Positions 24,285 to 35,123 of a DNA stretch of 35,852 bases are shown here, one piece after another (position 1 is the first letter of the stretch; every line of letters starts with the position of its first letter). The notes under the pieces were generated by a model that worked only from the letters and a program-made list of their open reading frames with translations, did not search any database and was not told where the DNA came from. Source of the stretch: a virus; IMG/VR virus record IMGVR_UViG_3300032311_000787, positions 1 through 35,852 of that record; one strand, 5' to 3'. Both the position numbers and the translations under genes were made by a program.

Positions 24285-24790
24285 GCGGCTTGCTCCAGGG
24301 CGTGAGCCAGCAGCCGGCGCGAGGAGGCCAGGGCTTCACAGGTGGCATTCATCTCGGCCAGCGTCGGGAACCATGTCGCCGTCAGGGCCAGCTTCATGCA
24401 GGCGGCTTTCGCCACGTCGGCCGGGAAGCGCATCAGGCACCCGGCGTAAAGCTCCAGAGCAACCGCCGTTCCCGCTTCCGACTTCCGCCCCCCTGCCGTC
24501 GCGGCTTGGAGCATCACCAGCCAGTCCTCGGCCTGGTCCTTTGTCGGGCCGGTCAGAGCGCCCCTCATGCGGGCTGCAGCCAGCGGGAGGTTCTCGGCAT
24601 TGCTCCCCGGCAGGACGCGGGCTCCGACCGCCAGCGCCCGGAAGCCGCCGCCGACCGGGAAGCGCAGTTCGGTCTCAACCGTAACCTCGACGCCGAGCGA
24701 CGAGGCTAGCGAAGTCAGCAGGGCCTTGTCCGCCGCCGCCGGGTCGGGCTGGGCGAGAAGCCACCCCCGAGCCACCTCCTCGTCGGCCAT
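24281..24790 (-). CDS. Replication-associated protein, overlapping the initiator gene
   Basis: A protein of about 169 residues. The start is uncertain: the ATG at 24790 gives a 116-bp overlap with the initiator gene, a longer reading (to 24895) would overlap more, and a later CTG is possible. C-terminal features are EDWLVMLQAATAGGRKSEAG, then YAGCLMRFPADVAKAACMKL and WFPTLAEMNA. This pattern (alanine-rich helices and a W-P-T-x-A-E motif) recurs in phage genes placed after replication initiators. A helicase-loader-like role would fit the place (lambda P position) but is not proved. Confidence 0.65.
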   Translation of the reverse strand: MADEEVARGWLLAQPDPAAADKALLTSLASSLGVEVTVETELRFPVGGGFRALAVGARVLPGSNAENLPLAAARMRGALTGPTKDQAEDWLVMLQAATAGGRKSEAGTAVALELYAGCLMRFPADVAKAACMKLALTATWFPTLAEMNATCEALASSRRLLAHALEQAA

Positions 24791-25421
24791 CACGGTCACG
24801 GAGGACCCAGTTGTGCCAGGTCCGGGACCAGTCGAGCTTTCGGGCCGCAGAACCGGCCTTAGCGAGCCAGTAGTTTCGAAACTCAATCGCTGCACGTTCG
24901 ATCTCCTGTTCGGTTAATCCGGCTTCCTGCGCTCTGGCGATGTCGTGTCCGTCAGGTTCCCAGTCCTCATGCAGACGGGAGCCCCCTGGGGGGACCAAGG
25001 GGGGTTTCTTTCCTCTGGTAGGTTCAGTGGTAGGTTCATACGAAGTAAGCCCGGAAACCATTTCCCCACCCCCCGGAAAGGATTTCCCCACCCCCCCGGA
25101 AACGGTTTCCCCACCCCCGGAAACGGTTTCCCCCCCTGTGACAGGGGCTTCCTCGGCCCATTCGAAGCAGATGAGGTCGCTGGATCGGGACCCGTCGTCG
25201 CGGGTGCGGACCTTGCGGGAGATGATGCCCTTGCTCTCGAGGGTCATCAGGGCGGCGCGAACCGTCCTCGGGGTCAGGCAGCTTTCCTCCGCGACGGTGC
25301 GCTGAGACGGCCAAGCCTCGCCGCGCTCGTTCGCGTAGTTGGCCAGGACGATGGCAACCAGCTTTTCGGAGGCTGTGACGCCCCTAAGCGCGAGCGCGCG
25401 GGTCATAGCCTGAACGCTCAC
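24675..25421 (-). CDS. Lambda O-like replication initiator with internal origin
   Basis: A 248-residue protein. Residues about 1-85 form a winged-helix domain of the HTH_36/phage initiator type (WPSQRTVAEESCLTPRTVRA is the HTH). Residues about 97-123 are glycine-rich and encoded by the four iterons (25053-25131). The C-terminal part holds helices and a final DWSRTWHNWVLRD motif typical of phage initiators, followed by a Gly/Arg-rich tail. As in lambda O, an origin embedded between DNA-binding and C-terminal partner domains is expected. The gene sits in the early operon, before a probable helicase-loader gene. Confidence 0.8.
   Translation of the reverse strand: MSVQAMTRALALRGVTASEKLVAIVLANYANERGEAWPSQRTVAEESCLTPRTVRAALMTLESKGIISRKVRTRDDGSRSSDLICFEWAEEAPVTGGETVSGGGETVSGGVGKSFPGGGEMVSGLTSYEPTTEPTRGKKPPLVPPGGSRLHEDWEPDGHDIARAQEAGLTEQEIERAAIEFRNYWLAKAGSAARKLDWSRTWHNWVLRDRDGRRGGGSGVASRPARPGGGGQGPADFASLVARRRGYG
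25053..25131. other. Four iterons, probable replication origin
   Basis: Four near-palindromic 13-bp cores (GGAAACGGTTTCC-type) start at 25053, 25075, 25098 and 25119, with spacings of 22, 23 and 21 bp. Copies 3 and 4 are identical; copies 1 and 2 keep the flanking GGAAA/TTTCC. The spacings are not all multiples of three, so one copy is read in another frame. This shows conservation at the DNA level. The array lies inside the initiator gene, as in the lambda origin. An 11-bp direct repeat (25016-25026 and 25028-25038) is adjacent. Confidence 0.75.
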
Positions 25422-25750
25422 CCCTGCCCTCCCATGCGCTTCTCGTGGGCGCGGATGGCGTGAAGGATGGTGCTGTGGTCCCGGTCGAGGTAGCGCCCGA
25501 TCTGGGGAAGCGAGAACCGGCGACGGCCATCCGCCCCGACAATACGCGACAGACGCCAGGCCAGTTCCTGCCGCGCCATAACCGTTGTGTTATCCCGATC
25601 CCTGCCGAGTATAACCCTAGGCTCCAGACCGTGTTTGACGGCCATCTCGCGGGCGATGGAGCGGACGAGGTCCCTTCCCTTCGGGCCGGGCTTCGGCCCT
25701 GTGTAGGGCATCCCAAAGCCGGGGATGCAGCCGGGCTGATAGGTCAGCAT
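25418..25750 (-). CDS. DnaA domain IV-like DNA-binding protein
   Basis: A 110-residue protein. The start at 25750 (ATG overlapping the upstream stop) is chosen; a longer reading would run through the GcrA-like gene. Residues 27-105 match the C-terminal DNA-binding domain of DnaA: an IAREMAVKHGL helix, FSLPQIGRYLDRDHSTILHA (the DnaA signature region, with RDHSTILHA) and a final AHEKR. No AAA+ ATPase domain is present. It may bind DnaA-box-like sites in the phage or host origin and so either help phage initiation or compete with host DnaA. Confidence 0.85.
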   Translation of the reverse strand: MLTYQPGCIPGFGMPYTGPKPGPKGRDLVRSIAREMAVKHGLEPRVILGRDRDNTTVMARQELAWRLSRIVGADGRRRFSLPQIGRYLDRDHSTILHAIRAHEKRMGGQG

Positions 25751-26301
25751 CGGGCGGCCACCTTCTCCACCCGGCGGTCGAAGACGCGCTGCGGGGTTTT
25801 CAGCGGGATCCACGCCAGCCGGTGGTGCGTCGGGCAGTAGCTGGAGCCGGTCTTCACCGCCTCGCCACAGGCCAGCGTATCGGCCCCCTGCCCAGCCACC
25901 GGCCAGGCACAGGCACACGGCGCACGGTCCACCAGCGTGACGGGCTCGACACCGTCCAGGGGCTGCCAGACCTCGCAGTCGATCACCCGCCAGGCCTTGC
26001 GCTCGGCATCCGCCGAACGATGCCAGACGCCCGCGCCGATATTCTCGGCAGGCGTGGCGACAGGTCGCGGCGCCTGCGAGCGCATCCGCGGTTCCGCCTT
26101 CGGCCTTGGCTGGGCGACGGCGCGGGGCTTGGCCGGCGTGACCGGGAACTCCACCCCGGCCCGCTGGAGCCGGTGCGCCCGGCCGATGGCGGCATTGCGC
26201 CCAACGCCAAGGGTGCGGCCGATCTCAGAATAAGGCGCACCCTCTTTCCGAAGCCGGATCAGCTCCGCGTCGCGCTCGGCAGTCCAGGCAAGGCCGTTCA
26301 T
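25744..26301 (-). CDS. GcrA-like cell-cycle regulator homologue
   Basis: A 185-residue protein. The ATG at 26301 overlaps the upstream stop (ATGA) and is preferred over the upstream in-frame start. Residues 6-45 carry the GcrA-type HTH (WTAERDAELIRLR and GVGRNAAIGRAHRL). After a basic, proline-rich linker, residues 128-165 carry the second conserved region: CACAWPV, ACGEAV and YCPTHHRLAW, with Cys/His spacing (C131, C145, C156, H159) like GcrA. In Alphaproteobacteria GcrA binds sigma70 RNA polymerase and methylated GANTC promoters. A phage copy could redirect host transcription or activate phage promoters. Confidence 0.85.
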   Translation of the reverse strand: MNGLAWTAERDAELIRLRKEGAPYSEIGRTLGVGRNAAIGRAHRLQRAGVEFPVTPAKPRAVAQPRPKAEPRMRSQAPRPVATPAENIGAGVWHRSADAERKAWRVIDCEVWQPLDGVEPVTLVDRAPCACAWPVAGQGADTLACGEAVKTGSSYCPTHHRLAWIPLKTPQRVFDRRVEKVAARC

Positions 26302-26657
26302 GCCGCCAGCCTCCGACCGGGCCACACCAGCGGGCGAGCGATGCCGAACGGGCTCCGCTTGTCGCCGCTATCCGAGAACGCACAGAACCCGCCCTGATCC
26401 ATCACGGCGGCGGCATGGCGCTCGCAGTCTTCCATCTGGCGTTGACGCAAAACCCGCAGATCGCGCTCCGTCTCCACCGAGGCCGCCTTCATCGCTCGCG
26501 GCTGCGACTGCGCTTGCTGCGCCTCGCGGCGGAGGCGATTAAAGCGGTCCGAGACCGCTGCCGGCGACTTGCCGAGGGCCTGCCCGATTTCCCGGTTTGT
26601 CCGGCCATGCCAGCGCATCGCCACCAGGGTGAAAACTTCGTCGTCCGTCCAGGTCAT
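26298..26657 (-). CDS. Second GcrA/Myb-like HTH protein
   Basis: A 119-residue protein. The N-terminus (MTWTDDEVFTLVAMRWHGRT and SPAAVSDRFNRLRR) has the same Trp-containing helix-turn-helix arrangement as GcrA and Myb/SANT domains. The rest is a charged helix and a Gly/Arg-rich C-terminus; no GcrA-like Cys/His region is present. It is directly upstream of the GcrA homologue and overlaps it by four bases, so the pair probably arose by duplication or serves related DNA sites. Confidence 0.7.
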   Translation of the reverse strand: MTWTDDEVFTLVAMRWHGRTNREIGQALGKSPAAVSDRFNRLRREAQQAQSQPRAMKAASVETERDLRVLRQRQMEDCERHAAAVMDQGGFCAFSDSGDKRSPFGIARPLVWPGRRLAA

Positions 26658-27025
26658 GCTGCGTAAATCCTCAGTTGAAGGGAGCCCGGTTTCGCGGGCG
26701 GGGTGTTGGACCAGACGAGGAAAATCCCCCTGGCCATATGGTCGTCTTCGATCACCCCGGCCCGTTTCAGGAGGTCCGAAGTGGGCTTTTCGAGGTTGCC
26801 GAGGTCACGGCGCCGGAGGTCGGGCGGGGTCGCCTCGATCAAGAGCCGGTAATGCTTCAGCGGGGCCTGGTGCTGCAGTTGCTCGGCAACGGCCTGCCCG
26901 GCTTCCAAGATCCATTCGCGATACCGCTTGGACAGGATGACCCGGCCATTCACAGCGCGATGGGTGGCGTTGACCGAGGGCGGGTAAGGCAGGGTCAGGG
27001 AGATCACCGGGACCCCCTCAGACAC
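26654..27025 (-). CDS. RusA-like Holliday junction resolvase
   Basis: A 123-residue protein starting with GTG. The RusA motif is clear: LPYPPSVNA near the N-terminus, RRRDLGNLEKP (71-81) and KRAGVIEDD (87-95). In E. coli RusA the metal ligands are two Asp in DLDN, a third Asp near residue 91, and K76. Here the first Asp (D74), the Lys (K80) and the late Asp (D95) are kept, but the second Asp position is Gly76. Activity is therefore uncertain. Role by family: cleavage of four-way junctions in replication and recombination. It overlaps its neighbours. Confidence 0.85.
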   Translation of the reverse strand: MSEGVPVISLTLPYPPSVNATHRAVNGRVILSKRYREWILEAGQAVAEQLQHQAPLKHYRLLIEATPPDLRRRDLGNLEKPTSDLLKRAGVIEDDHMARGIFLVWSNTPPAKPGSLQLRIYAA

Positions 27026-27174
27026 CCATGAACGAACTCCCGCCGTTCGGCCTCGATGTGGCGGATCGACCGATGCTTGGCCCTCGCCTCCGCAATGCGG
27101 CGGTCAAACTCGGCTAGCTTGGCGTCGAAGGCCGAGGGCTGGCGGCGCAGGCGGTTGAGCAGGGCGCGGATCAT
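27004..27174 (-). CDS. Small helical protein (56 aa)
   Basis: A basic, strongly helical 56-residue protein whose middle contains FDAKLAEFDRRIAEARAKHR. The ATG at 27174 overlaps the stop of the upstream small gene (ATGA), and its end overlaps the RusA start by 22 bp. The amphipathic, charged sequence resembles small phage proteins of unknown role. Evidence is operon continuity and good codon use for this genome; no family recognised. Confidence 0.5.
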   Translation of the reverse strand: MIRALLNRLRRQPSAFDAKLAEFDRRIAEARAKHRSIRHIEAERREFVHGCLRGSR

Positions 27175-27329
27175 CGGACCGCGTCCAGCGCATCGGCCAA
27201 GGCCTCACTCAGGGTGAGAAACACCTTGGCCTGAAGGTTCGACACCGCCAGCAGGGCGACGGTCGGAACGAGGGCCAGATACAGCCCGAAGATGGCGCAC
27301 CAACGCGCCGGTTCGATTAGCAACCTCAA
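27171..27329 (-). CDS. Very small membrane protein (52 aa, TTG start)
   Basis: A TTG start at 27329 is preceded by GGAGG with a seven-base spacer (27337-27341). One strong transmembrane segment (about residues 10-30, CAIFGLYLALVPTVALLAVS) is followed by a short acidic tail. The gene overlaps the last 125 bp of the upstream 143-residue gene in another frame and then joins the next ORF by ATGA. It could be a membrane-acting early toxin or an inhibitor; no evidence beyond topology. The alternative is that it is a chance frame. Confidence 0.45.
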   Translation of the reverse strand: MRLLIEPARWCAIFGLYLALVPTVALLAVSNLQAKVFLTLSEALADALDAVR

Positions 27330-27636
27330 GCTGCTTCCTCCGCTCCTGTTGAATGTGACTTTCGAGGCTGCACCCGATCACGGACGACAGGACCGGCAGG
27401 GCGACGCCCCAGCCTCCGGCCTTCCAGACCTTGTCGATGGTCGCCGCCGAGGCCGTGGCCTCGATGACGCCCCGCGCTTCGTCGGCGCTCAGGCCCCATT
27501 CCCGTTCGACCGCCTTGCGGCGCCCTACAGGCCAGCGGCTCGTGCAGTAGCTGGCCAGCGCATCACGCGACTGGCGGGTGGAGATGGGGAAACTTGCCCC
27601 ACCGCGCCCGAGGTTTTCCATGTGTGTCACCGTCAT
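27205..27636 (-). CDS. Early operon protein, unknown function
   Basis: A 143-residue protein. The N-terminal 100 residues look like a real helical protein (SRWPVGRRKAVEREWGLSAD, ARGVIEATASAATIDKVWK, GGWGVALPVLSSVIG). The C-terminal 40 residues are Pro/Arg/Gly-rich and overlap the 52-aa membrane-protein frame, so the true end is less certain; a frameshift cannot be excluded. It shares a palindromic ribosome-binding-site region with the divergent plus ORF at 27660. I recognise the N-terminal pattern from alphaproteobacterial phages but know no function. Confidence 0.55.
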   Translation of the reverse strand: MTVTHMENLGRGGASFPISTRQSRDALASYCTSRWPVGRRKAVEREWGLSADEARGVIEATASAATIDKVWKAGGWGVALPVLSSVIGCSLESHIQQERRKQLEVANRTGALVRHLRAVSGPRSDRRPAGGVEPSGQGVSHPE

Positions 27637-27983
27637 TGTTGCACCTCAGGAGGTGACGAGTGACGGACTGGAAACAGAACGCTTACGAAGCCGCCCGGCG
27701 CTGTTGGACACACAGCCGGGTGGAGACTGACACCGAGACCCGAAAGGCCCTGGAGCGGGCTGGAACCCGCTTCTTCTGGCGGGCCTGCGGGATGGAGAGA
27801 GGACCAAGCGGTCCCCTCCCCCCCGTCAGGCTTGCGGGACATACCGGCTACAGAAGCACACCGCGCAGGGGACCGGCTTGACCCATAGGGCTGCCCCGCC
27901 ATTGCGGCGGCGCCCGACCAACCGCCGGGAGAAAGGACCCCCGCGCGGAACTCGCGGACCGTTGATGTGGTCCGGTAATCCAT
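27633..27983 (-). CDS. Doubtful minus-strand ORF between Cro and the next early gene
   Basis: A 116-residue open frame. Its ATG overlaps the stop of the Cro-like gene (ATGA) and its stop overlaps the start of the 143-residue gene (ATGA). This perfect coupling on both sides favours it. Against it: the product is rich in Ser, Gly, Pro and Ala and has no recognisable motif, and an opposite-strand ORF with a strong ribosome binding site covers most of it. Both readings are listed. The truth may be one or both. Confidence 0.4.
   Translation of the reverse strand: MDYRTTSTVREFRAGVLSPGGWSGAAAMAGQPYGSSRSPARCASVAGMSRKPDGGEGTAWSSLHPAGPPEEAGSSPLQGLSGLGVSLHPAVCPTAPGGFVSVLFPVRHSSPPEVQQ
27642..27655. promoter_or_regulatory. 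Palindromic shared ribosome binding site region
   Basis: CACCTCAGGAGGTG is a perfect palindrome (CACCTC-AG-GAGGTG). Read on the plus strand, AGGAGGT (27648-27654) serves the GTG start at 27660. Read on the minus strand, GAGGTG serves the ATG at 27636. The RBS regions of two divergent starts are thus the two halves of one palindrome. Confidence 0.6.
27660..27881 (+). CDS. Doubtful plus-strand ORF opposite the early operon
   Basis: A 73-residue frame starting with GTG, preceded by AGGAGGT with a good spacer. The first 45 residues look protein-like (MTDWKQNAYEAARRCWTHSR). The last 25 are Pro/Gly/Arg-rich and look less so. It lies antisense to the minus frame described at 27633-27983. No plus-strand promoter is visible, and a leftward transcript must cross it. 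It could be a small regulator or nothing. Confidence 0.4.
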   Translation: MTDWKQNAYEAARRCWTHSRVETDTETRKALERAGTRFFWRACGMERGPSGPLPPVRLAGHTGYRSTPRRGPA

Positions 27984-28183
27984 CAGGCTGCCTCGACGCT
28001 TTCAGCGGCCAGCAACGCGTCGAGCGTGATGGTCGGAAAGGCTTGGATCAGCTCAGGCCAGGCAGTCCGAGGGATACGCTCTCGGAACTGCCACATGCGG
28101 ACGGTTTCCGTCCGAACGCGCAACGCTTCGGCTACCGCTCGGGCGCCGCCGTTGTTCTTGATGATGTCGCGATGGGTAGGCAT
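27983..28183 (-). CDS. Cro-like repressor
   Basis: A 66-residue protein with a single HTH (GARAVAEALRVRTETVRMWQ) typical of Cro/YdaS-type proteins. It is divergent from the CI-like gene and first in the early minus operon. The -10 element at 28190-28195 places transcription start at or next to its ATG (28183), and no ribosome binding site is visible, so it is probably translated from a leaderless mRNA. Role: competes with the repressor at the shared operators and commits to lysis. Confidence 0.8.
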   Translation of the reverse strand: MPTHRDIIKNNGGARAVAEALRVRTETVRMWQFRERIPRTAWPELIQAFPTITLDALLAAESVEAA

Positions 28184-28189
28184 GGCGAA

Positions 28190-28218
28190 ACACTACAGAC
28201 AGTAGCGTTTGCCCGCAA
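28190..28218 (-). promoter_or_regulatory. Early leftward promoter (cro promoter)
   Basis: On the minus strand, TTGCGG (28218-28213), a 17-bp spacer and TAGTGT (28195-28190). An operator (28193-28205) overlaps the -10 element. The 20-bp block from spacer to -10 is identical to that of the rightward promoter at 28801-28829. Confidence 0.7.
28193..28205. promoter_or_regulatory. Operator O1 at the cro promoter
   Basis: CTACAGACAGTAG on the plus strand; its reverse complement is exactly the operator at 28814-28826. Near-palindromic around a central G/C, with CTAC/GTAG arms. Confidence 0.7.
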
Positions 28219-28250
28219 CCTATTTCTTACACCCTGTGACGCGAGACTCG

Positions 28251-28263
28251 CTACCGTCGGTGA
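28251..28263. promoter_or_regulatory. Weak operator O2 just before the repressor start
   Basis: CTACCGTCGGTGA matches the operator at 28780-28792 at ten of thirteen positions. It overlaps the presumed ribosome-binding region of the repressor gene, so occupancy could autoregulate it. A GACTC (GANTC) site lies just upstream at 28245-28249. Confidence 0.5.
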
Positions 28264-28264
28264 C

Positions 28265-28663
28265 ATGCAGGATTGGACCAGCCTCCGCGACCCGCATGAA
28301 CGTATCAGGTGGGCACGTCTGAATCGGACGCACTTCGTCCGACCCACGGATGCAGCTCGCTCTCTAGGCGTGAAACCCGGCACTTATCGGACCTGGGAGA
28401 TTGCCAAGGCGGACGGCGGCCGGGCGCCCATGCTTTCCGAGATGCAGCACCTGGCCCGCAAGTTCAACGTGTCCTGGCGCTGGATGCTGACCGGCGAGGG
28501 TGCCCCCGACACCGACACCGACACCGAGATGAACGTCATGGCCGGCGGCATTGCCGAACGCCTGTCCCGCGTCGATGCCGTTAAGCGCAAAGACGCCCTC
28601 CGCGCTATCAACGGGATCCTAGACGCCTTCTCTGGCGAACCGCCCCTCCAGACCGGGACCTGA
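28265..28663 (+). CDS. CI-like repressor, short, without peptidase domain
   Basis: A 132-residue protein starting at the ATG of 28265 (a longer upstream reading runs through the Cro operator region and is rejected). Residues 25-75 form an XRE-type HTH (TDAARSLGVKPGTYRTW) with the motif WRWMLTGEG that follows it in many phage repressors. The C-terminal part is short, with a DTDTDT repeat and helices, and no S24/LexA-like autocleavage domain. Induction would therefore need another trigger, such as an antirepressor. It faces the Cro-like gene. Confidence 0.78.
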   Translation: MQDWTSLRDPHERIRWARLNRTHFVRPTDAARSLGVKPGTYRTWEIAKADGGRAPMLSEMQHLARKFNVSWRWMLTGEGAPDTDTDTEMNVMAGGIAERLSRVDAVKRKDALRAINGILDAFSGEPPLQTGT

Positions 28664-28673
28664 CCGCCGGGGA

Positions 28674-28716
28674 TGTTCACGTGTTCATCTCCCTAAGGGG
28701 CGTGAACACGTGAACA
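28674..28716. other. Long inverted repeat with two CACGTG cores
   Basis: TGTTCACGTGTTCA (28674-28687) and TGAACACGTGAACA (28703-28716) are perfect 14-bp inverted repeats with a 15-bp spacer that can itself form CCC-TAA-GGG. It follows the repressor stop codon and precedes its terminator. It could be a cruciform, a protein-binding site or a stable mRNA 3' structure. Confidence 0.65.
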
Positions 28717-28725
28717 AGAACGACA

Positions 28726-28746
28726 CCTCGCTCCGGCGGGGTTTTT
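28726..28746 (+). terminator. Rho-independent terminator of the repressor gene
   Basis: CCTCGC (28726-28731), loop TCCG, GCGGGG (28736-28741) and TTTTT (28742-28746). Six-bp stem with one G-U pair. It separates the repressor transcript from the next rightward promoter. Confidence 0.75.
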
Positions 28747-28779
28747 CATGCGCCCAACCCTACAGCGTCAGAAAAAACG

Positions 28780-28792
28780 CTACAGTCTGTAA
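28780..28792. promoter_or_regulatory. Operator O3, upstream of the rightward promoter
   Basis: CTACAGTCTGTAA, a 6-1-6 near-palindrome (the perfect form would be CTACAG-T-CTGTAG). A weaker half-site (CTACAG) begins at 28760, 20 bp upstream. O3 lies just upstream of the -35 element. Confidence 0.6.
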
Positions 28793-28800
28793 TTTTCCGC

Positions 28801-28829
28801 TTGTCGGGTGACGCTACTGTCTGTAGTGT
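28801..28829 (+). promoter_or_regulatory. Rightward promoter of the recombination/integration operon
   Basis: TTGTCG (28801-28806), a 17-bp spacer and TAGTGT (28824-28829). The operator at 28814-28826 overlaps the -10. The start site would be near 28836, giving a short leader with GGAGA (28852-28856) before the ATG at 28863. This 20-bp spacer/-10 block is an exact copy of that at the cro promoter. Confidence 0.7.
28814..28826. promoter_or_regulatory. Operator O4, overlapping the rightward -10
   Basis: CTACTGTCTGTAG, exact reverse complement of O1 at the cro promoter. Embedded in the 20-bp block that is identical in both promoters (28811-28830 and 28189-28208). Confidence 0.7.
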
Positions 28830-28862
28830 TCCCTCATCGCCAAAGCGCGACGGAGAAGACAG

Positions 28863-29195
28863 ATGAAAATCACCCCCGACAATTTTGCCGCTGTGTTTGA
28901 GTACATGGTTGGCGAGCCCGGCCCCGCCGAGTTCCACGACAGCCTCACCGAAATGCACGCCTGCCGCTGCGACAACTGCGGCGCTTGGTGGTGCGACGGC
29001 GAGACGCTGGACGACCACGACTTCAGCGACGAGCAGCTGTGTATCGAGTGCCTCGAAGGCTTCTCAAGCGTCTGGTGCGAAGGCGTCAGCGAGTTTGAAC
29101 ACCATGCGGCCAGCCGGGCGAAAGAGCGGCTCTGGGACGCGGTTCCCTACCGCACCCTCGAAGAAGCCCTCGCCGACGATCAGGTCGCCGCCTGA
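28863..29195 (+). CDS. Zinc-ribbon-like small protein
   Basis: A 110-residue acidic protein, first gene of the rightward operon, with ribosome binding site GGAGA. Cysteine pairs CDNC (C36-C39) and CIEC (C60-C63), with extra Cys at 34 and 44, suggest a zinc-binding knuckle. Its start is 34 bp after the promoter -10. Placed before the annealing protein, it may be a regulator or a DNA-binding accessory factor; no family recognised. Confidence 0.65.
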   Translation: MKITPDNFAAVFEYMVGEPGPAEFHDSLTEMHACRCDNCGAWWCDGETLDDHDFSDEQLCIECLEGFSSVWCEGVSEFEHHAASRAKERLWDAVPYRTLEEALADDQVAA

Positions 29196-29359
29196 TGGAC
29201 CTTCGGCTCACCCCTCACCTCGACGGCTACGCCCTCCGCTTCTGGTCCCCGGAAGCGGAGGAGGTCATCGCCACCTTCCCCGACATCGACGCCGCGTGGG
29301 CCGCCCTGAAAGCCGCCCGCCGCGCCGCCTTCCAACTCAGGATGCTCACCAATGTTTGA
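29195..29359 (+). CDS. Small protein before the annealing protein (54 aa)
   Basis: A 54-residue frame. Its ATG overlaps the previous stop (TGATG) and its end overlaps the annealing protein start (8 bp). Sequence pattern: MDLRLTPHLDGYALRFW, then an acidic helix and a basic helical end. Tight coupling on both sides and good codon use support it. No known function. It may be an accessory partner of the recombinase. Confidence 0.6.
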   Translation: MDLRLTPHLDGYALRFWSPEAEEVIATFPDIDAAWAALKAARRAAFQLRMLTNV

Positions 29360-30047
29360 CACATCCCCCACGATCGCCGCCCTCGCCAAGGCCCTGTCAG
29401 CCGCCCAGGGCGAGGTCGAGGGTGCCGTTAAGGGCAAGGCGAACCCCGCCTTCCGGTCCAAGTATGCCGACCTCGCCGCCGTCTGGGATGCCTGCCGGGA
29501 AGCCCTCACCAAGAACGGCCTCGCCATTGTCCAGTCCCCCGGCCCCTGCGCTGACGGCCGCATGGAGATGACGACCATGCTCGCCCACGCTTCCGGCGAG
29601 TGGATGCGCGGCACCCTCACCATCCCCCTCGCCAAGGTCGACGCCCAGGCCTACGGGTCCGCGACCACCTACGCCCGGCGATATGCCCTTGCGGCTTTCG
29701 TCGGTGTGGCGCCCGAGGACGACGACGGCAACGCAGCCGCAGCCGCGGCGCCCAAGCGCGAGGCCCCGGCCCCCGCCCCGGCCCCGATCAATGGCCGCAA
29801 GAACTCGGCACAGGCCAAGCGCGACGGCGACCACGAGCGCGTCATGAACGAGGTGGACCGGCTCACGAAAGAGGGCATGGCCGACTGGCTGGCCAACTTT
29901 GACGCCTATACCTCAGACCTCCCCCTCTCATGGCTCGACCCGATCCGCGACCGGCTGCACCTGCGCCGGGATGAACTGTTCGGCAAGGGCCAGGCCGAGG
30001 ACGACATGGACGCGGCCTTCGCCAGTGCGGTCGGGAGGGCGGCATGA
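29352..30047 (+). CDS. ERF-family single-strand annealing protein
   Basis: A 231-residue protein. The ERF signature is clear in residues 25-125: ANPAFRSKYADLAAVWDACR, then LAIVQSPG and SATTYARRYALAAFVGVAPE. The C-terminal part is variable and charged. ERF proteins form rings on single-stranded DNA and promote strand annealing. Phages use them for end-joining, recombination and circularisation (P22 Erf). It lies beside a NinB-like gene, as often seen. Confidence 0.88.
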   Translation: MFDTSPTIAALAKALSAAQGEVEGAVKGKANPAFRSKYADLAAVWDACREALTKNGLAIVQSPGPCADGRMEMTTMLAHASGEWMRGTLTIPLAKVDAQAYGSATTYARRYALAAFVGVAPEDDDGNAAAAAAPKREAPAPAPAPINGRKNSAQAKRDGDHERVMNEVDRLTKEGMADWLANFDAYTSDLPLSWLDPIRDRLHLRRDELFGKGQAEDDMDAAFASAVGRAA

Positions 30048-30448
30048 GCCGAGCCCTGGTGATCATCACCCGCGCCACAGACCGCGAGCGCGTGATCTCA
30101 TGGGCGCGTCAAGCCCCCTGGGGAACCCGAGTGACCTTCCAGGAGGCCAAGCGCACCACGGACCAGAACGCCCGCATGTGGGCCATGCTTACCGACGTTG
30201 CCCGGCAGGTGAAGTGGCACGGACAGAAGCTGACGGCCGACGATTGGAAGCTGATCTTCATGGCCGCGTTGAAGCAGGAAATGCGGATCGTCCCGAACCT
30301 CGACGGCACCGGCTTCGTGGCCCTTGGCCGCTCCTCGTCCAGCCTGTCAGTCGGTGAGATGGCCGACCTGATGGACCTCATCGACGCCTTTGCCGCGAGG
30401 CAGGGCGTGACGTTTGCAGCGCCGGCACAAGAGCAGGAGGCGGCATGA
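30044..30448 (+). CDS. NinB-like recombination protein
   Basis: A 134-residue protein (lambda NinB, 146 aa). Family-like segments are TTDQNARMWAMLTDVARQV (about 37-56), KLTADDWKLIFMAALKQE and then RSSSSLSVGEMADLMDLIDA. The ATGA overlap ties it to the ERF gene before it. NinB binds single-stranded DNA and aids recombination pathways that also use RusA-like resolvases, which fits with the RusA gene in this phage. Confidence 0.82.
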   Translation: MSRALVIITRATDRERVISWARQAPWGTRVTFQEAKRTTDQNARMWAMLTDVARQVKWHGQKLTADDWKLIFMAALKQEMRIVPNLDGTGFVALGRSSSSLSVGEMADLMDLIDAFAARQGVTFAAPAQEQEAA

Positions 30449-30738
30449 CCTTCCGTGTTGGCGGGCGTGGCCACAGAACCCTCGACGCCCTCGTCTCCGG
30501 CCCTCAGGCCCACGCGGACCTCGTGGATCTGATCGCCCGCAGTGACGACCCCCGCGACCAGCGGACGGCGCATTTCCTGATCTTGGCGCTGAAGGACCAC
30601 GGCCTCACCGCCGAACGGGATTGCATCACCCGGATCACCGCCAAGGGCCTCGACGCCCTGGCCGACCTCGACGCGGGCATCCCGGCCTACAGCGAGGAAC
30701 CGACGCCTCGCGTGACTTACTGCCGGAGGGTCGCATGA
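30445..30738 (+). CDS. Small protein, possible winged helix
   Basis: A 97-residue protein with an alpha-helical first half and LKDHGLTAERDCITRITAKG, which reads like a winged-helix recognition segment. Four-base overlaps on both sides tie it to NinB and the HNH gene. No known family. Likely a small DNA-binding accessory protein; inference only. Confidence 0.6.
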   Translation: MTFRVGGRGHRTLDALVSGPQAHADLVDLIARSDDPRDQRTAHFLILALKDHGLTAERDCITRITAKGLDALADLDAGIPAYSEEPTPRVTYCRRVA

Positions 30739-31139
30739 GCCCCGCCGACAAACGCGCCACCCTCGCCCGCTTGCGGGAAGCCATCGGCCAAATCCGGCCC
30801 GAGAAAACGCCGCGCAAGGGCTTCACGCCCTCGCAGCGCAGGAAGGTGGCCGAGGACTTCGGCGGGGCCTGTAGCGCCTGCGAAACGGCCCTGACAGGGG
30901 CGTGGCACATCGACCACGTCATCCCCTTGGCTCTCAGCGGCCGGCACGAGCCGGGGAACTGGGTTCCGATCTGCGTGGACTGCCACAAGGCGAAGACGCG
31001 GGGCGACGTTCGCACCATCGCCAAGACCGAACGCATCATCCGCCGCGAGGTCGAGGGGCCGAAGCCGTCCCGCCTCAAGAGCCGCGGCTTCACATCATCC
31101 CGCCGCTTTGACGGCACAGTCAGGAGGCTTGACGCATGA
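30735..31139 (+). CDS. HNH endonuclease
   Basis: A 134-residue protein. The start at 30735 overlaps the previous stop (ATGA); a longer upstream reading is a shadow. Catalytic HNH motif: HIDHVIPLALSG (58-69), N75, and CVDCHKAK (80-87). CxxC pairs C46-C49 and C80-C83 make a structural zinc site. The family includes homing, packaging-associated and restriction-type nucleases. The gene lies in the recombination operon, two genes before a DNA methyltransferase, so it may be a self-protecting nuclease partner. The target is unknown. Confidence 0.82.
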   Translation: MSPADKRATLARLREAIGQIRPEKTPRKGFTPSQRRKVAEDFGGACSACETALTGAWHIDHVIPLALSGRHEPGNWVPICVDCHKAKTRGDVRTIAKTERIIRREVEGPKPSRLKSRGFTSSRRFDGTVRRLDA

Positions 31140-31333
31140 TCTACCTCACCATCACTCCATCCGCCCGCGCTCTATCCGACACCCTCGCCTCAGAGGCCGC
31201 GCTGATCCGCCGGGCCTGCGGAAATTGGGCAACGCCCGAGGCCCTGGCTTCTGCAGAACGCGCCGCCGACCGGATGCGAGCCCAGCTCGCCGCCATGAAG
31301 GCCGAGATCACCAAAGCCCGGAGGGCCGCATGA
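31136..31333 (+). CDS. Small helical protein (65 aa)
   Basis: A 65-residue protein with two alanine-rich amphipathic helices. The ATGA overlaps on both sides bind it to the HNH and methyltransferase genes. It may be a small regulator or structural partner of either enzyme. No motif. Confidence 0.6.
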   Translation: MIYLTITPSARALSDTLASEAALIRRACGNWATPEALASAERAADRMRAQLAAMKAEITKARRAA

Positions 31334-32742
31334 TCTACGGTTCGGTCTGCAGCGGCATCGAGGCCGCGTCTGCCGCCTGGCACCCCCTCGGCTGGTCGCC
31401 CTCGTTCTTCTCCGAGATTGACGCCTTCCCCCGCGCCGTCCTGGCGCACCGCTTCCCAGAGGTGCCCTTGCATGGCGACTTCACGACGATTGAGGCCGGA
31501 GACTACCGGCCAATTGACCTTCTGGTCGGAGGAACCCCCTGCCAATCGTTCAGCATCGCAGGCCTCCGAGGCGGATTGGGTGACGACCGCGGTAACCTGG
31601 CCCTCGAATATCTTAGGCTGGCTGACCGACTGCGGCCCAAGTGGCTGGTTTGGGAGAACGTCCCCGGCGTCCTGTCATCCAACGGAGGACGGGACTTTGG
31701 TTCCATTCTCGGGGGCATGGTCCAGCTCGGGTATGGGTTCGCCTATCGAGTGCTTGACGCTCAGTTCTTTGGAGTGGCCCAGCGACGCCGCCGTGTGTTC
31801 GTTGTCGGATACCTTGGAGACTGGCGCCCTGCAGCGGCGGTACTTTTTGAGCGCCACAGCCTGCGCGGGGATCCTCCGCCGAGCCGAACGGCGGGGAAAG
31901 GCACTTCCGCCGATGTTGCTCCAAGCCTTGTCGCAAGTGGCTGGGGCGTTGAGCGAACCGGAGAGACCCGAGGTCAGGACCCCTTAGTGGCGGTCCCGGC
32001 GATTGCCAATCCGCTGACCGCGCGGATGCACAAGGGCGTCAACACCACAATGGACGAGGGCCAGACGATGATCGTCGAGTCCCAGCGCCAGATGTCCGTC
32101 GAGATTGCGGACACGCTGGGGGTCGGGGCTAACCAGACGACGGGCTTCCAGTCTGAGGTCGTGGCTGTCCAGCCCGTCGCCTACTCCATCATGCCGATGA
32201 ACAGCGGCAAGGACTACAAGGCCCGCGAGACGGATATCGCCCAGCCCGTGATGACTTCCCCGGTCGGGGGCAATCAGGGCGGGGACTATGTCGTCCAGCC
32301 TATCGCCATTCAAGAACGCGCCATCTGCGAAAACCCGAACGCTGGCCCAGATGGGGCGGGGTTCAGGGCGGATGGCGCCGCCTACACGCTGGAGGCCCGG
32401 ACAGTCCCGCAGGCCGTAGCCTTCCAGCAAAACGTGCGGAACGAGGTGCGGTTAATGAATGGGGACGGCGCAATAGCTGGCGCACTGCCAGCCCAGGCGG
32501 GCATGAAGCAGCAAAACTATCTGGCTCACGCCCTCCAAGTCCGCCGCCTGACCCCGACCGAGTGCGAGCGTCTCCAGGGCTTCCCGGACGGCTGGACCGC
32601 TATCCCCTATCGCGGCAAGCCCGCCTCAGATGGCCCGCGATACAAGGCCCTGGGAAACAGCATGGCCGTGCCGGTCATGGCCTGGATCGGTCGCCGTATC
32701 GCCGCCGTTGAAAACCTCCACTTGAACCAGAGGGCCGCATGA
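31330..32742 (+). CDS. DNA (cytosine-5) methyltransferase
   Basis: A 470-residue m5C methyltransferase. Motif I SVCSGIEAAS (5-14), motif IV GGTPCQSF (67-74, catalytic Cys71), motif VI ENVPG (109-113) and motif VIII QRRRRVF (151-157) are followed by a long variable region (about 165-410), and the C-terminal motifs IX/X RRLTPTECERLQGFP and YKALGNSM. The start at 31330 overlaps the previous stop. The long central insertion is the target-recognition region plus repetitive-looking blocks; specificity cannot be read from sequence. No cognate restriction gene is obvious. Likely use: protection from host restriction or epigenetic control. Confidence 0.9.
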   Translation: MIYGSVCSGIEAASAAWHPLGWSPSFFSEIDAFPRAVLAHRFPEVPLHGDFTTIEAGDYRPIDLLVGGTPCQSFSIAGLRGGLGDDRGNLALEYLRLADRLRPKWLVWENVPGVLSSNGGRDFGSILGGMVQLGYGFAYRVLDAQFFGVAQRRRRVFVVGYLGDWRPAAAVLFERHSLRGDPPPSRTAGKGTSADVAPSLVASGWGVERTGETRGQDPLVAVPAIANPLTARMHKGVNTTMDEGQTMIVESQRQMSVEIADTLGVGANQTTGFQSEVVAVQPVAYSIMPMNSGKDYKARETDIAQPVMTSPVGGNQGGDYVVQPIAIQERAICENPNAGPDGAGFRADGAAYTLEARTVPQAVAFQQNVRNEVRLMNGDGAIAGALPAQAGMKQQNYLAHALQVRRLTPTECERLQGFPDGWTAIPYRGKPASDGPRYKALGNSMAVPVMAWIGRRIAAVENLHLNQRAA

Positions 32743-33002
32743 CCAGCGACATCATCCAACGCCTAGCCCGCGAACGCGCCATCCAGCGCCTGTCGCCCGC
32801 TCAGGCCAACCTCCTGACCCGACCCATCCTCGCCGGGGAACTGGACGACACCGACCGCGTGGCAAGCATCATCCAGGACATCGAGGCCGGGTTTGTGCTG
32901 GCGGAGTTGACCTTGGAAGAAGCCCGCACCTTTCGCCCGAGCGGTGCTGACAGCCTGGCCGGGGTCGGTGGTCGGGAAACCGCAAAGGAGACTGCACGAT
33001 GA
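32739..33002 (+). CDS. Small protein after the methyltransferase
   Basis: An 87-residue helical protein starting at an ATGA overlap (32739) and ending in another (33002). Sequence starts MTSDIIQRLARERAIQRLSP; there is an acidic centre and a charged tail. No recognised domain. Coupling suggests co-expression with the methyltransferase. The preceding SD AAGGAG (33 bases before the next start) resembles the repeated linker of the following genes. Confidence 0.6.
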   Translation: MTSDIIQRLARERAIQRLSPAQANLLTRPILAGELDDTDRVASIIQDIEAGFVLAELTLEEARTFRPSGADSLAGVGGRETAKETAR

Positions 33003-33337
33003 CCGAGCCAGACGAGGCCCTGCTGTGGGCGAGGGAGCGTGCTGCGAAATGGCAGGACGAAGGCGGCGGCAAGGCTGGCCATAGCTATCGGAGCGGCAAG
33101 CTGGACGGCCTTCTCGGTGAGGAGGTTGAGGGCTACCGCGCCGGTCAGGCCGCATCCGCCGAGCGGATCAAGGCGCTGGAGGAGGCTATTCGCGGGGGCC
33201 TTACTGCTGTTGCCGCAGCTTACCTACAGGGAACCCACGACGCTTTCTATAGCGACCGAACAGACGATAAACATGACCGTCTTGTCGTGGCATGGAGGGC
33301 CGAAGCCCGCAATCTGTTCAAGGAGGCTGACCAGTGA
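32999..33337 (+). CDS. Small protein ending in the repeated EADQ linker
   Basis: A 112-residue protein: acidic N-terminus, Ala/Gly-rich helices and a basic C-terminal part. Its last codons (KEADQ) are part of an AGGAGGCTGACCAGTGA sequence that both ends this gene and starts the next by GTGA overlap. The same 17-base unit ends the next two small genes. No known function. Confidence 0.6.
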   Translation: MTEPDEALLWARERAAKWQDEGGGKAGHSYRSGKLDGLLGEEVEGYRAGQAASAERIKALEEAIRGGLTAVAAAYLQGTHDAFYSDRTDDKHDRLVVAWRAEARNLFKEADQ

Positions 33338-33417
33338 ACCGAGATCGTCTTATCAAACCGGCACGGAGCGCCCTGCCGTTGGGTTTATCGGACGCCGCAA
33401 AGGAGGCTGACCAGTGA
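33334..33417 (+). CDS. Tiny coupled ORF (27 aa)
   Basis: A 27-residue frame starting with GTG in the first linker and ending in KEADQ at the second. It is too short to judge as a protein; it could be a translated spacer that carries ribosomes onward. A duplicated linker may have trapped this piece. Included because both ends are the same coupling unit. Confidence 0.35.
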   Translation: MNRDRLIKPARSALPLGLSDAAKEADQ

Positions 33418-33566
33418 GTGGCGCTGAACTGCTTCCGTCCGTTGTGTTTTTATCGCTCACCGTGGGTGTGTTGGCTGTCGTCGTTGTCGCTCAACAATTC
33501 ATGATTGTGCAACTGACCGCCACCGTTCGGGATATGGCGAACTACCTTGAGGAGGCTGACCAGTGA
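33414..33566 (+). CDS. Small membrane protein (50 aa)
   Basis: A 50-residue frame with a GTG start in the second linker and a strong hydrophobic segment (about residues 8-30, VVFLSLTVGVLAVVVVAQQF), then a short polar C-terminus that ends in EADQ at the third linker. A single-TM topology of this size fits an envelope-acting early protein or superinfection-exclusion factor; inference only. Confidence 0.55.
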   Translation: MSGAELLPSVVFLSLTVGVLAVVVVAQQFMIVQLTATVRDMANYLEEADQ

Positions 33567-33724
33567 GCAAGGACTGGCTGTTCTACCATATCATCGACGT
33601 TCTCCGTTCCGAGGCCTACCGCCGACCTGAGCGCGACATCTACTGCCCGCTGTGGCTGGCGGTTTTCCTAGGCGCGTGGGGCCTCGGCTTCCTGATAACT
33701 TTGATGATTGGAGCGTGGTCATGA
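33563..33724 (+). CDS. Small membrane protein (53 aa)
   Basis: A 53-residue frame: a basic helical N-terminus (DVLRSEAYRRPERD) and a hydrophobic C-terminal segment (about 29-50, LWLAVFLGAWGLGFLITLMI). GTG start in the third linker; ends with an ATGA overlap. Opposite topological polarity to its neighbour (TM at the C-terminal end). It could act in a pair with the preceding protein. No family recognised. Confidence 0.55.
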   Translation: MSKDWLFYHIIDVLRSEAYRRPERDIYCPLWLAVFLGAWGLGFLITLMIGAWS

Positions 33725-33891
33725 CCTATCCACCCGAACTGCGAGCCTACTACGACGCCCACGACGCAATGATGGATGTTGAGCGTTGGGGATACGAGGC
33801 AACGTGGTCCACCTATTACGGTAACTACAAGGTCGCCCGATACAACGCCGTGAAAGCTGGCTATCTGCCCGAGACGCCGGAGTTCGGATGA
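33721..33891 (+). CDS. Small acidic/aromatic protein (56 aa)
   Basis: A 56-residue protein starting at the ATGA overlap of 33721 and ending at another (33888-33891). Rich in Tyr and Trp (RAYYDAHD and WSTYYGNYKVARYNAV), with Pro near both ends. It precedes the excisionase-like gene. Small Tyr-rich proteins of this kind are common next to phage integration genes; function unknown. Confidence 0.6.
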   Translation: MTYPPELRAYYDAHDAMMDVERWGYEATWSTYYGNYKVARYNAVKAGYLPETPEFG

Positions 33892-34063
33892 CAGCCTTCG
33901 CCGTCCGCACCATCACCGATGCCGAAGCGGCTGACCGGCTGGGCTATTCCCTCCGCGCCCTTCGGCCTGTGATCGACCGGCACGGATTGTGCTTGCGTCT
34001 GGGGCGGCGCAGGCGTCTGACTGAGGCCCATTTCCTCGCCCTGCAGAACGCCCTCGCCTCACC

Positions 34064-35123
<1,060 letters not shown>

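Follow-up and report, generated by a model that had tools for sequence, protein, structure and literature searches.

Two promoters on either side of a phage repressor gene carry an identical 20-bp block, which raises the question of whether one repressor governs both of the operons that they precede. The window, i.e. the whole stretch of DNA that was analysed, is a virus record of 35,852 bp with 65.5% G+C. Sequence features of the window and of its relatives suggest that this is very probably a lambda-like immunity region, in which a single repressor would silence both early operons via paired operators. Joint silencing had been proposed in a first-pass annotation of the DNA, and the comparative data presented below support it.

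Gene content of the window

The structural genes of the window show weak relatedness to phages with P22-like portal proteins. The presence of an integrase and a repressor suggests that this metagenomic phage is temperate, although this falls short of proof. The make-up of the two early operons is as the first-pass annotation had described, with replication genes in the PR operon and recombination genes plus the integrase in the PL operon, a division of the lambda type:

24675..28183, minus strand: early part of the PR operon, with Cro, RusA-like, DnaA-C-like and O-like genes
24675-25421, minus strand: O-like replication initiator
25418-25918, minus strand: DnaA-C-like gene
26654-27025, minus strand: RusA-like resolvase
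27983..28183, minus strand: Cro-like gene (66 aa, putative P22-Cro/YdaS-like helix-turn-helix), which opens the early operon on this strand
28265..28663, plus strand: CI-like repressor gene (132 aa)
28725..28746, plus strand: terminator-like hairpin and T-run, 3' of the repressor gene, which it sets apart from PL
28863..35095, plus strand: PL operon, starting with two small genes before ERF
29352-30047, plus strand: ERF
30044-30448, plus strand: NinB
about 30621-31139, plus strand: HNH-like gene, assigned from reading the translation
within 31108-32742, plus strand: C5 cytosine methylase
34064-35095, plus strand: integrase

Between the repressor gene and the terminator lies a perfect 13-bp inverted repeat (GTTCACGTGTTCA ... 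TGAACACGTGAAC, 28675-28715), which is missing in the near-identical relative L003 and has no second exact copy within the window.

Promoters and candidate operators

The shared 20-mer ACGCTACTGTCTGTAGTGTT was found as reported, in exact copies at 28189-28208 (minus strand) and 28811-28830 (plus strand), with a chance expectation of 0.00 and no match in 100 shuffles; a copy with three mismatches lies at 28777-28796. The only two perfect CTAC-N5-GTAG palindromes in the 35.9-kb window are those within the two blocks, which bracket the CI-like gene (28265-28663, plus strand), again as had been claimed. Allowing two mismatches to CTAC-N5-GTAG as the sole criterion proved too loose (98 occurrences versus 75 expected), and alphaproteobacterial-type LexA boxes (GTTC-N7-GTTC) showed no excess in the window (28 versus 25.7 expected). 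On each side, a -35 box stands 17 bp from TAGTGT, in agreement with the first reading. The predicted elements are the following:

28190..28195, minus strand: PR -10 box TAGTGT, 6 nt before the cro ATG
28193..28205: candidate operator OR1, CTACAGACAGTAG, within the first 20-bp block and overlapping the PR -10 box
28213..28218, minus strand: PR -35 box TTGCGG
28227..28239: candidate operator OR2, TTACACCCTGTGA, 34 bp centre-to-centre from OR1
28251..28263: candidate operator OR3, CTACCGTCGGTGA, 24 bp centre-to-centre from OR2, with two mismatches
28780..28792: candidate operator OL2, CTACAGTCTGTAA, 34 bp centre-to-centre from OL1, with one mismatch
28801..28806, plus strand: PL -35 box TTGTCG
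28814..28826: candidate operator OL1, CTACTGTCTGTAG, within the second 20-bp block and overlapping the PL -10 box
28824..28829, plus strand: PL -10 box TAGTGT

At both -35 positions, most relatives have CTTGC or similar letters. The repressor and cro genes thus diverge from a gap with candidate operators over the predicted cro promoter, and a second putative promoter with matching candidate operators follows past the repressor gene, both features being of the lambda type.

The additional operators claimed at 28251-28263 and 28780-28792 are present and are backed by the positions of sites in relatives. OR2, a third candidate site in the cro-repressor gap, had not been noted before; like OR3, it is an imperfect site in the window. 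Its position is also occupied in the relatives L015 (TCACACAAAGTAG), whose repressor is 74% identical, and L016 (TCACAGGCGGTGA), whose repressor is 50% identical, and both share the OR site frame of the window. At the distance of OR3, which overlaps the presumed PRM -10 box (CTACCG, 28251-28256), L016 carries a perfect palindrome, CTACAGTCCGTAG, and L015 a degenerate third site, TTACCATGCGGAA. A half-site had also been claimed at 28760; the letters (CTACAGCGTCAGA) are there, but we consider it unsupported because they occur elsewhere only in the near-identical L003 and L014.

Conservation and matched change in relatives

An exact search of viral contigs with the 20-mer matched only the near-identical L006. 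A profile search of viral contigs yielded 19 loci, three of them found earlier, and the comparison set comprised 17 distinct loci with related repressors, the window included. The candidate sites are kept in L003-L005. Examination of relatives with diverged repressors, which the first-pass annotation had proposed as a check, revealed that the operator sequence changes, usually on the cro side and the far side together, and that the candidate operators sit on the -10 boxes of both promoters.

OR1 was defined in each locus as the AC-N5-GT core closest to the cro start. In all 17 loci, such a core is found 8-10 nt ahead of the cro start codon, overlapping the cro -10 box. When the ten half-site letters of OR1 were sought in the 900 bp past the repressor, the mean match was 9.29 of 10 within the own locus versus 8.03 in other loci (permutation P = 5e-5, the floor of 20,000 shuffles); in L018, L028 and L030, this far-side stretch contained no clear match. 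In the relatives the half-sites agree, whereas spacers and surroundings differ. The half-sites fall into the following dialects:

GCTAC..GTAGT: the window, L014 and L015
GTCAC..GTAGT: L016
GATAC..GTATC: L017
GTAAC-type: L018-L022 and L032
TTAC..GTAA: L024-L027 and L029
CTTAC..GTAAG: L028
GGTAC..GTACG: L030

The motif was first spotted by eye in a few loci, and its enrichment was therefore computed again on held-out loci, where YYAC-N5-GTRR was 30.9-fold enriched beside the repressor (19 occurrences in 9.9 kb versus 7 in 112.7 kb, P = 6.4e-16). The 64.6-fold enrichment of GTWAC-N5-GTWAC beside the repressor is a descriptive figure, because this pattern was chosen after viewing the same loci. 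Control patterns with a spacer of 4 or 6 showed no occurrence or no significant enrichment beside the repressor. A motif-free comparison of shared blocks separated only some of the loci.

The promoter frame is likewise conserved. In 12 of the 17 loci, exactly 81 bp separate the start codons of cro and the repressor, and across the set T and A are conserved at -12/-11 before the cro start, as are T and A at -13/-12 plus T at -8 before the repressor start. Both -10 boxes lie 6-8 nt before the start codons, and from this spacing the cro and repressor mRNAs are probably leaderless, i.e. they would start at or beside their start codons. The PL transcript is not leaderless, its frame having a putative ribosome-binding site; the order OL2, -35 box, OL1 over the -10 box, ribosome-binding site and ATG recurs in most loci, with a site spacing of 32-37 bp. 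The far-side pair is still present, with a 34-bp spacing, in L016, where an extra gene separates the repressor from PL. This extra gene (L016/L005; L005 4356-4745, minus strand) stands opposite to the repressor and has a product that looks exported (signal-like start, NPY-rich repeats).

Several relatives also display an inverted repeat just 3' of OL1, in which CTCC-type letters face the ribosome-binding GGAG, as exemplified by L024 (GTCTCCTC ACACACC GAGGAGAC). It reaches a shuffle level of 0.025 or better in 6 of 15 loci (L014-L032) and is weak in the window itself (28830-28862). The first arm of the repeat would fall outside the mRNA if the transcription start is the one suggested by the promoter frame.

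Relatives were also sought in bacterial genome contigs, where the CI-like search gave no confirmed relative and the Cro-like search gave one distant Ignatzschineria locus, which was left out of the analysis. Everything recovered from 398 genomes of the phylum of this Ignatzschineria genome and 385 of the class of genome G243 was either a chromosomal regulator or a long repressor carrying a C-terminal domain, so that neither an integrated copy nor a host was found.

The CI-like and Cro-like proteins

The CI-like protein matches phrog_2328, ‘transcriptional repressor’ (E 9e-8), and has a helix-turn-helix N-terminal domain. It ends at 132 aa and lacks the S24 peptidase domain of the LexA/lambda CI class; a Pfam search of the protein detected no peptidase, and 15 aligned relatives are about equally short, the family ranging from about 120 to 139 aa. 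With no RecA-cleavable domain, induction would presumably take another route, e.g. loss of the repressor or an antirepressor. The structure model of the repressor (mean pLDDT 77.6) combines an N-terminal helical domain of the XRE/lambda-repressor-like type, which resembles ImmR, P22 c2, 434 Cro and the lambda repressor (Z 6.0-7.8), with a C-terminal part of two helices and no peptidase. These structure matches are middling, with a best VIA-align Z of 7.8 and no Foldseek E below 0.001, and a PDB sequence search with the repressor family returned no credible match.

Two relatives depart from this pattern. L031 (4731-5657), recovered alongside short repressors in one search, encodes a long repressor that is peptidase-like (S24-like) in its C-terminal half, and the flanks of this gene contain no YYAC-N5-GTRR site. 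In L030 (5001-5370), stops interrupt the repressor frame and similarity is lost partway along it, as though by a frameshift.

At position 39, in the recognition region of the repressor, all six GTAAC loci have H, the CTAC loci and most TTAC (GTTAC) loci have G, L026 and L028 have N, and L017 has V; residues 43-44 are either TW or AY. In the repressor tree, the dialects group by lineage, and the tracking of residue 39 is therefore a lead and not proof. We tentatively put forward, as a possibility less probable than its opposite, that these phages share a switch of 81 bp whose mRNAs are leaderless in both directions and whose repressor has no peptidase, and in which one or two recognition residues, 39 (G/H/N/V) and 43-44 (TW/AY), would largely set the N5 dialect (half-sites CTAC, TTAC, GTAAC, GATAC and CTTAC). 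If true, the dialects would form a ready natural series for reading a protein-DNA recognition code.

The Cro-like protein matches phrog_8008. In a test against the PF14549 and PF15943 families, it hit P22_Cro at E 3.8e-4 (20.6 bits versus a curated cut-off of 30.2) and YdaS_toxin at E 1.4e-3 (18.9 bits versus a cut-off of 30). A profile of five Cro-like relatives weakly matches the Cro-family structures 5w8y, 3bd1 and 1rzs (E 0.005-0.009).

Proposed switch and alternative explanations

We propose that Cro and replication would be driven leftward from PR, with OR1-OR3, and recombination and integration rightward from PL, with OL1-OL2; between the two putative promoters stands the CI-like gene, which points to PL. 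With the short CI-like protein bound as a dimer to OR1 and OL1, the -10 boxes of both promoters would be covered and both early operons thereby shut. Each pair has a second site, 34 bp off and upstream of the -35 box, which would probably strengthen repression. These sites are probably also those used by the Cro-like protein, OR3, over the -10 box of the repressor's own promoter, being its likely key target. Binding, the site preference of each protein, cooperativity, loop formation and the induction route are aspects of this switch that we infer.

The sites might instead be bound by the Cro-like protein only, with the CI-like protein recognizing something else. In favour of this, Cro too contains a helix-turn-helix, and the examined loci have a divergent Cro-like gene. 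However, it is residue 39 of the CI-like protein that tracks the operator dialect, even though relatedness may explain this tracking, and operators are common to both proteins in lambda and CP-933P (PMC8630535), so that we consider this explanation improbable. Still less probable is that the phage exploits the sites of a host regulator: some host regulators do bind short spaced palindromes, but here the site sequence shifts between phages in step with their own repressor lineage and the sites are concentrated at the flanks of the repressor gene. The two blocks, which in the window agree over 20 bp, including the spacer and some flank letters, could also stem from a recent duplication or from chance and have no regulation in common, but the agreement in relatives is confined to the half-sites and the shuffles gave no match, making this origin very unlikely.

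Comparison with known systems

The principle of shared OL and OR operators is textbook knowledge from lambda, in which OL and OR also flank a repressor gene read toward PL, PR leads to cro and replication, and PL leads to recombination and integrase genes. Lambda operators are 17 bp long and about 23-24 bp apart, as opposed to the 34-bp first spacing found here. The C-terminal domain of lambda CI is RecA-cleavable, in contrast to the short repressor of the window. Lambda also has N, cII and rexAB, no counterparts of which were seen in the window.

What the present analysis provides is a set of well-defined operators that comes in five or more dialects within a fixed promoter frame, in environmental phages that are little represented in GenBank. 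Immunity groups could be predicted from such sequences, and the co-change of repressor and operator is directly testable.

The closest known system is the immunity region of CP-933P, a cryptic prophage of E. coli O157:H7, with its PaaR2/YdaS pair (PMC8630535). Like the window, CP-933P has a short CI analogue without peptidase motif (PaaR2), a divergent Cro (YdaS in CP-933P), palindromes in the gap, which in the window are candidate operators, and a PL with PR-like boxes and sites (PMC8630535). PaaR2 is said to have no sequence similarity to CI (PMC8630535). In CP-933P, the operators have been footprinted, the -35 and -10 boxes of PL are identical to those of PR and accompanied by OL1-3, and the paaR2 mRNA was shown to be leaderless (PMC8630535). 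The two systems differ in operator consensus (GTTTAGTAA versus CTAC-N5-GTAG here), in the gap (97 bp with four palindromes versus 81 bp) and in the presence, in the repressor operon of CP-933P, of a YdaT/CII analogue and a toxin-antitoxin pair (PMC8630535), neither of which was seen here. In the telomere phages PY54, phiKO2 and N15 (immB), the repressor and cro genes likewise diverge and have operators in common, although these phages form linear plasmid prophages, PY54 has one operator and the OL sites of N15 lie upstream of repA (PMC4488713). In PY54, both mRNAs were found by RACE to be leaderless (PMC4488713), as is probable for the cro and repressor mRNAs of the phages described here.
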